NCBI GenBank assembly: GCA_947503155.1
Contig: CANNCL010000001.1
Coordinates: 744,001 to 808,000, forward strand
Length of the DNA: 64,000 nt
Origin: an uncultured Erythrobacter sp.
GTDB lineage: Bacteria > Pseudomonadota > Alphaproteobacteria > Sphingomonadales > Sphingomonadaceae
Reading direction: 5' to 3'
Each line of letters starts with the position of its first letter. Within the stretch, counting starts at the first letter, position 1. Of the stretch, positions 10,562 to 13,394 are shown piece after piece. The position numbers and the translations under genes were made by a program. Under the pieces are notes generated by a model. The model was not told where the DNA came from, made no database searches, and saw nothing but the letters and a program-made list of their open reading frames with translations.

Positions 10562-11605
10562 ATGGACATGTCCGCGCCGATCTACGAATTTTCTCAGCTC
10601 CCGCAAGCGGCGGAAAAAGCCGCGGGAAAAGCAGGCCCCCGTGCCCAGCGCGCGGCTGGCGAGGCGCCTAGCGTCGGCGTTATCTACAACCCACGAAGCC
10701 ATGGCAATCAGGGCGCTGATTTTGATTGCGGGATCACCCCGCAGGTCCATATCGCGCAGCCTGGCGACCGATCACAATTGCCCGAAGCATTGGCCGATCT
10801 GGCGGCGCGCGGGATTGATTTGCTGGTTATCAATGGTGGCGATGGGACGGTGCGCGATGTGCTGACCTGCGGCGCTAGTATCTTTGGTGACGATTGGCCT
10901 GCGATTGCGGTTCTGCCCAAGGGCAAGACGAATGCGTTGACGGTTGATCTGGGTGTGCCGGGTGATTGGTCATTGCAACATGCGATTGACGCCTTCGAAA
11001 ATGGCGGGCGCGTTCATCGCCGCCCCATTGCGGTGACATCGAAAAACGAAGAGGCCGGCAGCCAAGTGCTGGGTTTTATCCTAGGGGCTGGCGCATTCAC
11101 CACCGCGACAAAATCCGGGCAGGCCGCGCATAAATTGGGCGCGTTTAACTCGATGGCTGTGGGTGTGACGACCGCTTGGGGTGTGGTTCAGTGGTTCTTC
11201 GCCTCGCGCACAAATTCATGGCGGCGCGGTTCGCGCATGACCATTGCGCTTGGTCCACAAGAAGCCCCGATGGAGCATAGCGGCACGGGTGATCCGGCTT
11301 GGCGGCAGTTGCTGTTTTCGTCGACGCTGGAGACAATGCCGGCGGGGATCAAACCTTTTGGGCCGCTGCGTAAGGGGCTGAAACTGGTCGCTCTCGATCA
11401 AATTGCCCGGCGTTCTGCATTTCTAATCCCTGCGGTTTTGCGCGGCAAAACCCCGGCTAGACTGCGTGAACGCGGGATACATCAGCTGACGACGCCGCAA
11501 TATACGCTGAATATCGAAGACCAGTTTATCCTCGACGGCGAAGCCTTCCCCCCGGGCGAATATCGCATCGGTCAGGGACCAGAGCTTGAATTCGTAACCC
11601 CGTAA
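10562..11605 (+). CDS. Diacylglycerol kinase family (lipid kinase-like) protein
   Basis: VGVIYNPRSHGNQ and VINGGDGTVRDVLT DAGK catalytic signatures. Confidence 0.85.
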   Translation: MDMSAPIYEFSQLPQAAEKAAGKAGPRAQRAAGEAPSVGVIYNPRSHGNQGADFDCGITPQVHIAQPGDRSQLPEALADLAARGIDLLVINGGDGTVRDVLTCGASIFGDDWPAIAVLPKGKTNALTVDLGVPGDWSLQHAIDAFENGGRVHRRPIAVTSKNEEAGSQVLGFILGAGAFTTATKSGQAAHKLGAFNSMAVGVTTAWGVVQWFFASRTNSWRRGSRMTIALGPQEAPMEHSGTGDPAWRQLLFSSTLETMPAGIKPFGPLRKGLKLVALDQIARRSAFLIPAVLRGKTPARLRERGIHQLTTPQYTLNIEDQFILDGEAFPPGEYRIGQGPELEFVTP

Positions 11606-11622
11606 GGCGAAAAGCGCGGCCC

Positions 11623-12543
11623 ATGACCCGCAGCCCTCTAAACCTGTCAGATCGAATTGCTGAGCGCCTTGATGCGCCCATTGACCCTGCGGTGGCCGCA
11701 TTTGCGCGCGCGCTGGCTGAGGATGCCGGCGCGGATGCGGTGCTGTTTTATGGATCGAATTTGCGCACCGGATCGCTCAAGGGGGTGCTCGATTTCTATG
11801 TCCTATTGCCGGGCGCGGAGCAGTCGCGGATATGGCCGCGCGTCAGCTATCATGAGCGTGAGGATGACGCCGAAAAGGGCGATAATATGCTGCGCGCAAA
11901 GGTGGCGACTATGGCGCTATCAACCTTTGCGAAGGCGGCATCAGGCGACCTTGCCGACACCACAATTTGGGCGCGGTTCGTACAGCCCGCTGCTTTGGTC
12001 TGGCAGCGAAATGATGCGGCGCGCGGGCGGGTTACGGATGCCGTTCGATCCGCTGCGATAACGTCGGCGCGGCTGGCGGCGGCATTAGGCCCGGCCAGCG
12101 GCACGGCGGAGGATTATTGGCGCGCGCTGTTCCGCGCGACCTATAAAGCGGAATTCAGGGTCGAAAAAGCTGGGCGCGAAAATGACATTCTCAGTGTGAA
12201 TGCGGCGCATTTCGCGGGATTGCTCCCGCTCGCGCTGGACGCAGCGGGCATTGCCTGCACACTTAGCGGCGACCGGTTGACCCCGAGCTTTTCAGCCAGT
12301 GAGCGATCGCGTGTGCTGAGCTGGTGGAAGCGCCGCAAGCGGCTGGGCAAACCGCTCAATTTCACACGACTGATCAAAGCCAGCACAACTTTTGACGGGG
12401 CGGCAAAATATGCAGCTTGGAAGATTGAACGGCACACCGGGATGCCTGTCGAAGTGACGCCATTTCGTGAGCGGCACCCGCTGCTGTCAGCGCCCAGCGT
12501 GCTGTGGGCGCTGAGGAAGCACCGGAAGAACCGAAGCTCTTAG
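11623..12543 (+). CDS. Putative Tam41/Mmp37-like phosphatidate cytidylyltransferase (nucleotidyltransferase-fold protein)
   Basis: 306 aa; FYGSNLRTGSLKGVLDFYVLL (GS..D-F pattern), LRAKVATMALSTFAK..DTTIWARFVQPAALVW, RATYKAEFRVEKAGREND, RLIKASTTFDGAAKYAAWKIERH resemble the order of motifs I recall for eukaryotic Tam41. Adjacent to the DAG kinase-like gene. Confidence 0.5.
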   Translation: MTRSPLNLSDRIAERLDAPIDPAVAAFARALAEDAGADAVLFYGSNLRTGSLKGVLDFYVLLPGAEQSRIWPRVSYHEREDDAEKGDNMLRAKVATMALSTFAKAASGDLADTTIWARFVQPAALVWQRNDAARGRVTDAVRSAAITSARLAAALGPASGTAEDYWRALFRATYKAEFRVEKAGRENDILSVNAAHFAGLLPLALDAAGIACTLSGDRLTPSFSASERSRVLSWWKRRKRLGKPLNFTRLIKASTTFDGAAKYAAWKIERHTGMPVEVTPFRERHPLLSAPSVLWALRKHRKNRSS

Positions 12544-12581
12544 CCGAAATATTTCCCCTTCGGCCTTAGCCGAAATATTTC
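12539..12581. repeat. 17-bp direct repeat (cttagccgaaatatttc) with 26-bp period spanning both convergent gene ends
   Basis: Copies at 12539-12555 and 12565-12581; each includes a stop codon region. Confidence 0.9.
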
Positions 12582-13105
12582 ATCGTTATGGCGATTGAGT
12601 TGACCCCGCTGCCGACGCTAAAGCGCGTTTCATCAATGCCCGGCTTGCCGAGGTTGAAGATATTGATCGAGGGGTTGTTCGACATCGCGCCGCCATCGGT
12701 GCGGATATCGGTCGAGCCATTGCCATTGACGTCGTGACGCACAGCGACGGCGTAATTGCCGCTGGCGGGCACTGGCAAGCACACCGTCATCCGGCCGCGC
12801 CGGGCGGGCAATTCGATCCGGTTCAACCAGCGCCCGCTTTCCAGCCAGTCGGCGCGTGTGCCATTGTAAACCTGTGCCCGGATCGTGCCGCTTGAATTTT
12901 TGACGCCATTGATCGTGACCCGAACCGACGGACCGGCCCCCGGAGCGCAAGCGCGCATATTGTTGGAGATTGCGTTGCGATAATCGCTGCCGCTGGACGC
13001 CTGAGCCGAAGCGGGCGCGGTCGGCGCAGCGGTGCCCAGCACCAGCATAGCGGCAGCGGCAATGCCGCCAAACGTGGTTTTGATCACTGATTTCGAAACT
13101 GTCAT
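12566..13105 (-). CDS. DUF2141-like secreted protein
   Basis: Signal peptide then VRVTINGVKNSSGTIRAQVYN..YAVAVRHDVNGNGSTDIR..; start at MTVSKS (13105) preferred. Confidence 0.8.
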   Translation of the reverse strand: MTVSKSVIKTTFGGIAAAAMLVLGTAAPTAPASAQASSGSDYRNAISNNMRACAPGAGPSVRVTINGVKNSSGTIRAQVYNGTRADWLESGRWLNRIELPARRGRMTVCLPVPASGNYAVAVRHDVNGNGSTDIRTDGGAMSNNPSINIFNLGKPGIDETRFSVGSGVNSIAITMKYFG

Positions 13106-13394
13106 TTTCTGCCCGTTATATAATTGGATGCGGCTTGTTGGGAGGCCAAATGCCCCCAAGGCCGAGCGACAATTCGCCGCAAGAATATGACACGTTAATG
13201 GCATTTGCGTGCTGAATTGCGCCTGAACTGATCGCACATTGAGTGACTAACACAGGGCCCTAAATGCGATTCTGATGCCAAACGCTTATCTCGCACATGC
13301 AAAAAGGGCGGGGAAAAGCGGTTTACACCGGCTTGCTGCGCGATTCGCGGTGCGCGTAAGGCGGAGTGCAAACGAAAAGGCGCGTTTGTTAACA

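Follow-up and report, generated by a model that had tools for sequence, protein, structure and literature searches.

A putative ceramide kinase gene and the gene of a remote Tam41 relative form a candidate cpgB-cpgC pair in an Erythrobacter genome

A lipid kinase gene and its downstream neighbour

The window, that is, the whole stretch of 64,000 nt that was analysed, belongs to a 3.14 Mb genome whose nearest named relatives are Erythrobacter/Porphyrobacter (Erythrobacteraceae). The original prediction had placed two ORFs within positions 10562-12543, a diacylglycerol (DAG)-kinase-like gene followed by a gene for a possible Tam41-type CDP-DAG synthase. Both ORFs are present and intact, with 17 nt between the kinase stop and the start of the second gene (Table 1), and the description as a gene of the DAG kinase family followed by one for a remote Tam41 relative agrees with the PF00781 match of the former and the best fold match of the latter, which is Tam41.

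Table 1 Features of the kinase/Tam41-like gene pair and its downstream neighbour (positions in the window)
Feature	Position	Strand	Remarks
DAGK_cat lipid kinase gene, cpgB-like, predicted ceramide kinase	10562..11605	+	347 aa, GGDGT motif; PF00781
Tam41-fold cytidylyltransferase-like gene, cpgC-like, predicted CTP:ceramide-1-phosphate cytidylyltransferase	11623..12543	+	306 aa; AF2, Foldseek, hhalign, gene context
YGS motif (Y43-S45), nucleotidyltransferase core	11749..11757	+	invariant in 35 sequences; aligned with Tam41 GYGS
D57 of LDFY	11791..11793	+	D57 invariant; Tam41 IDFIF
K93	11899..11901	+	aligned with invariant Lys of Tam41 (KYG)
R118-F119-V-Q121-P122	11974..11988	+	aligned with Tam41 R-F-Q-K-P
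Y174-x-x-E177-x-R179	12142..12159	+	aligned with Tam41 S-Y-x-G-D-x-R
Terminator-like hairpin between convergent genes	12559..12574	+	consensus match only
DUF2141 gene	12566..13237	-	PF09912 E=1.9e-20; neighbour of the pair

In a Pfam scan, the kinase matched DAGK_cat with E=1.1e-12 and 48.1 bits against a cut-off of 23.6. Its translation contains GGDGT, which is found in 67 of 71 kinase homologues from the clusters described below, and lacks the eukaryotic CxxxCxxC motif, so that it presents the combination by which bacterial ceramide kinases are recognized (DAGK_cat and GGDG without CxxxCxxC). The 306 aa protein encoded by the second gene matched no Pfam or NCBIfam family in single-sequence scans, and an NCBIfam scan of its homologue family also yielded nothing. 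It has no clear transmembrane segment: the maximum 19-residue hydropathy of 1.6 is borderline by the usual transmembrane threshold and is reached in one place only, and this region is modelled inside a soluble helical domain. The C-terminal region is basic (20 K/R versus 5 D/E in residues 225-306), which, together with the lack of a clear transmembrane helix, would suit an enzyme that, like Tam41, attaches peripherally to the membrane.

The pair is followed by a convergent DUF2141 gene, the true start of which is likely near 13105 and whose product has a signal-peptide-like N-terminus. In 60 of 73 loci, a DUF2141 gene accompanies the kinase/Tam41-like pair, in varying orientation; it may have a role in phosphosphingolipid handling. 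Terminator-like hairpins such as the one between the convergent genes were found six times in the region, compared with 3.9 in shuffles.

A remote relationship to Tam41

We modelled the structure of the second protein with AF2, using the window protein and 33 relatives as input (pLDDT 89.8, pTM 0.88). In a Foldseek comparison with the PDB, all five matches at E<=0.001 were chains of Tam41, namely 6ig4, 6ig2 and 7ecd (the Firmicutes Tam41-CTP-Mg structure), with E values of 2.5e-7 to 7.7e-6, a probability of 1.00 and moderate TM scores of 0.46-0.56, and the modelled protein thus appears to have the Tam41 fold. The next matches were ANT(4') aminoglycoside nucleotidyltransferases (E 2.7e-3). Sequence profiles gave fainter signals. 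In hhalign, a broad alignment of the family (A4) aligned with Tam41 over 176 columns with E=3.2e-4, a probability of 39% and ~15% identity, and a narrower alignment (A1) did so weakly (E=0.047); the Tam41 profile used here was shallow and consisted of three sequences, two from PDB alignments and one yeast row entered by hand, the same yeast sequence also having served as a search query. Tam41 was not found when HMM profiles of the family were searched against PDB sequences, and a distant homologue (G200) alone reached it in a PDB sequence search, with E=1.6. With regard to the Pfam family PF09139, none of the sequences exceeded the curated cut-off of 24 bits: the window protein gave no match and one of 35 family members, again G200 (locus L084), a sub-threshold one (E=1.4e-4, 21.8 bits).

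The GS-x(11)-D motif that the original prediction had pointed out in the second ORF turned out to be real and corresponds to Y43 G44 S45 ... D57 F58 Y59. Likewise, the further segments that it had listed as following in the same order as in Tam41 agree with the hhalign profile alignment, in which YGS, Asp, Lys, RF..P and Y..[D/E].R of alignment A4 are in register with Tam41. In two alignments of 32 and 35 homologues gathered from genomes, the larger of which spans the Pseudomonadota, YGS 43-45, D57, Y59, K93, R118-F119, Q121-P122, E177, R179 and E181 are invariant. Where usual nucleotidyltransferases have DxD, Tam41 and the window family share a single acid (D-F-x), the place of the second acid being occupied by the invariant Y59 in the window family and by the last residue of D-F-I in Tam41. 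This agrees with the report that, of the three acids of the nucleotidyltransferase fold, Tam41 retains only one (PMC11646218). The window protein therefore has the set of features that marks the Tam41 site, GYGS-type motif, single-acid nucleotidyltransferase site and conserved Lys and Arg.

Judged by sequence profiles and the predicted model, the window protein is a remote homologue of Tam41 that lies outside the Pfam family as curated. Of the Tam41-type assignment, the fold, the YGS and Asp residues and a remote relationship are thus retained, and membership in PF09139 is not, as its cut-off was not reached. The original prediction was to be given up if HMM and structural matches or the catalytic residues were missing, and this applies only in part, with the fold and YGS/Asp present and PF09139 sub-threshold.

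Its suggestion that the gene is relevant to the origin of the mitochondrial enzyme did not find support. The Firmicutes Tam41 (7ecd) and yeast Tam41 are close relatives (E=2.3e-29) compared with the ~15% identity observed here, and because the Firmicutes protein is far closer to the mitochondrial enzyme, the window gene says nothing about an alphaproteobacterial origin of the latter. Among 399 Pseudomonadota genomes, none had a PF09139 match above the cut-off. Canonical Tam41 thus seems to be rare or missing in this sample, which revealed no alphaproteobacterial ancestor of the mitochondrial protein. A bacterial Tam41 with CDP-DAG synthase activity has already been reported (Kimura et al. 2022, as cited in PMC11646218).

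Pairing and sphingolipid gene context

Of 101 evenly sampled Sphingomonadaceae genomes, 77 have the Tam41-like gene, and in every one of these the kinase gene was located immediately upstream on the same strand, with a gap of -27 to 510 nt; no kinase of comparable strength was found in the 24 genomes without the Tam41-like gene. A serine-palmitoyltransferase-like gene (spt) was detected in all 101 genomes and lies within 15 kb of the pair in 25 of the 77. One genome of the same genus as the window genome (G043) lacks both genes of the pair and has kept spt, showing a recent loss or a patchy gain.

We further fetched 73 loci, among which the kinase gene was beside the Tam41-like gene in 71, and assigned the neighbours by Pfam-verified reference searches; automatic ORF clustering, noisy in high-GC DNA, was set aside. 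LptF/LptG-like permeases were found in 33-35 of these loci, serine palmitoyltransferase (SPT) in 27, a CDP-alcohol transferase in 20, CerR in 18 and AasR in 14. Among close kin of the window clade, Novosphingobium has the pair bordered by genes for a cytidylyltransferase, a CDP-alcohol transferase and a second nucleotidyltransferase. In the tree, the window clade is nested in a larger clade whose homologues adjoin cpgA, or spt plus cpgA, and in two outer members of this clade (L116 and L120) genes for a CDP-alcohol transferase, the kinase, the Tam41-like protein, SPT, CerR and AasR stand in a row. On plasmid p546-2 of Roseomonas haemaphysalidis the order is cytidylyltransferase, nucleotidyltransferase, two LptF/G, HIT, metallophosphoesterase, CDP-alcohol transferase, DAGK, Tam41-like protein (labelled 'hypothetical protein', as in the other named records inspected), PLP aminotransferase and ACP, a series that matches CC_1152-CC_1163 as described for Caulobacter (PMC11324152). 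Overall, the gene order in the relatives equals that of the Caulobacter cluster CC_1152-CC_1165 (PMC11324152).

Comparable clusters are also carried by Diaphorobacter and Pseudomonas plasmids. The conjugative IncP plasmid of Diaphorobacter sp. JS3051 (L155/L156, NZ_CP065408.1, about 41-69 kb) has a large cluster of the sphingolipid/phosphosphingolipid type with genes for an SPT-like aminotransferase, ACP, a fatty acyl-AMP ligase, NRPS, P450, LptF/G, two CDP-alcohol transferases, a CpgC-like protein and the kinase. On the IncP plasmid of Pseudomonas sp. JS425 (L158, NZ_CP073662.1), a comparable cluster is located near a class 1 integron with sul1.

In the window genome, DUF2141 is the only one of these neighbours beside the pair, and spt is located ~296 kb away on the same contig. 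A search of the genome itself found no close CpgA or CpgD, only distant matches. Genes for phosphosphingolipid synthesis have been described as scattered in Sphingomonadales (PMC11324152), and the window genome fits this pattern, with the pair present, spt far off and CpgA/CpgD-like proteins distant. The position characteristic of cpgC, after cpgB and beside spt or cpgA, was found in the relatives, and in the window genome it is reduced to the adjacency to cpgB. Elsewhere in the same genome, a cluster at 7328-12750 of L144 (G000:C2) encodes an inositol-1-phosphate synthase together with an NTP transferase and two CDP-alcohol phosphatidyltransferases; these could form a route to inositol phospholipids or inositol phosphosphingolipids.

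A candidate CDP-ceramide route and its comparison with known systems

In Caulobacter, CC_1160 (CpgB) is a proven ceramide kinase (PMC10331486), and CC_1161 (CpgC) is needed for ceramide phosphoglycerate (CPG), at the step from ceramide-1-phosphate (C1P); the latter carries an InterPro domain that points to a CDP-DAG synthase, and an NDP-activated ceramide has been proposed as its product (PMC11324152). As of May 2026, the conversion of C1P to CPG by CpgC was still described as proceeding 'via an unidentified mechanism' (PMC13228409). In Zymomonas, which is without CC_1159, CPG but not CPG2 is expected (PMC11324152). From gene order and the published InterPro domain note we infer that the window gene is orthologous to CpgC, and the sphingolipid context supports ceramide rather than DAG as the presumptive substrate of the kinase.

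By analogy with these counterparts, the pair is probably a cpgB-cpgC module of phosphosphingolipid synthesis in which the Tam41-like protein makes CDP-ceramide. The kinase would convert ceramide and ATP to ceramide-1-phosphate, as its orthology suggests, and the Tam41-fold protein, in view of its fold, residues and position, may convert CTP and ceramide-1-phosphate to CDP-ceramide and PPi with Mg2+, as Tam41 does with phosphatidic acid. The latter protein, with its basic C-terminal region, would be soluble and probably be located at the inner membrane. A transferase would then swap CMP for the head group, which could be glycerate by analogy with Caulobacter ceramide phosphoglycerate. The Tam41-like shape of the model suggests how the CpgC step may work, and the proposed substrate follows from gene context and the literature on the Caulobacter counterparts, as it is not readable from the fold; Tam41 itself uses phosphatidic acid. 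We also consider it moderately likely that the CpgC family forms a branch of its own within the Tam41 fold and produces CDP-ceramide, so that bacteria would build phosphosphingolipids by a CDP-ceramide pathway alongside the CDP-DAG pathway that leads to glycerophospholipids. No report of CDP-ceramide in bacteria was found in the literature searched.

The reading offered by the original prediction was that the kinase makes phosphatidic acid from DAG and the Tam41-like protein CDP-DAG, which would add a salvage or branch route to glycerophospholipid synthesis. The fold match to a phosphatidic acid cytidylyltransferase and the DAGK_cat domain of the kinase speak for it, but an ordinary cdsA-type gene (PF01148) is already present elsewhere in the window genome, members of the family can do without the pair (missing from 24 of 101 genomes, all of which have spt), the pair is embedded in ceramide/phosphosphingolipid gene clusters in other lineages, and the corresponding Caulobacter kinase acts on ceramide (PMC10331486). 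For these reasons such a route was not borne out, and we regard it as quite unlikely. Alternatively, the Tam41-like protein could be CpgC but transfer phosphoglycerate or glycerate directly to ceramide-1-phosphate, or from a CDP-linked donor, without CDP-ceramide. Caulobacter genetics, which place CpgC between C1P and CPG, would suit this as well, and a direct attachment was proposed by earlier authors, as far as they are cited in PMC11324152 and PMC12275187; yet the Tam41-type fold with its YGS, Asp, Lys and Arg residues argues for nucleotidyl transfer from CTP, and direct attachment has been judged energetically not very favourable (PMC11324152). We therefore consider it unlikely.

It is very improbable that the protein is some other nucleotidyltransferase, e.g., an ANT-like enzyme modifying small molecules, with the match to Tam41 reflecting a general resemblance of the nucleotidyltransferase fold. 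The ANT(4') structures were indeed next in Foldseek and the profile identity to Tam41 is low, but more than two orders of magnitude separate the two groups of matches, the alignment extends beyond the nucleotidyltransferase core (K93, R118-P122, Y174-R179), and the gene is strictly paired with a lipid kinase gene.

If the protein acts as a CTP:ceramide-1-phosphate cytidylyltransferase, the Tam41 fold and the matching residues reduce the CpgC step to one simple reaction to assay, CTP + ceramide-1-phosphate -> CDP-ceramide + PPi. In Caulobacter, anionic phosphosphingolipids make life without LPS possible and influence polymyxin sensitivity. Sphingomonads commonly carry the kinase/Tam41-like pair, the second gene of which escapes all Pfam and NCBIfam models at their cut-offs; caution is needed before such pairs are taken for a CDP-DAG route or for forerunners of the mitochondrial enzyme.

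The best structural match of the window protein, Tam41/Mmp37 (PF09139; mitochondrial 6ig2 and 6ig4, Firmicutes 7ecd), shares with it YGS, the single Asp replacing DxD, Lys, RF..P, Y..[D/E].R and the lack of clear transmembrane segments. Unlike Tam41, the window protein stays under the PF09139 cut-off at ~15% identity and has Glu177 in place of the second conserved Asp (Asp188 in the numbering of the Tam41 fragment); the gene context of its family differs, and the lipid substrate probably differs too. CdsA is a multi-pass membrane protein unrelated to the Tam41-like protein. The window protein, which has neither a PF01148 nor any other Pfam match nor multiple transmembrane segments, does not belong to the CdsA family, and the type of chemistry proposed for it (CTP plus a lipid phosphate) is the same. 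A close parallel is the arrangement of CpgB-CpgC in Caulobacter crescentus (CCNA_01218-01219, i.e., CC_1160-CC_1161). In contrast to Caulobacter, the window pair stands apart without a close cpgA or cpgD and is likened to it by gene order and the published domain. In both, a DAGK_cat kinase gene adjoins a gene whose product has a domain of the CDP-DAG synthase type, and the relatives of the window pair have in common with the Caulobacter cluster the neighbouring genes for CDP-alcohol transferase, SPT, ACP, CerR, AasR, LptF/G, metallophosphoesterase, HIT and cytidylyltransferases.
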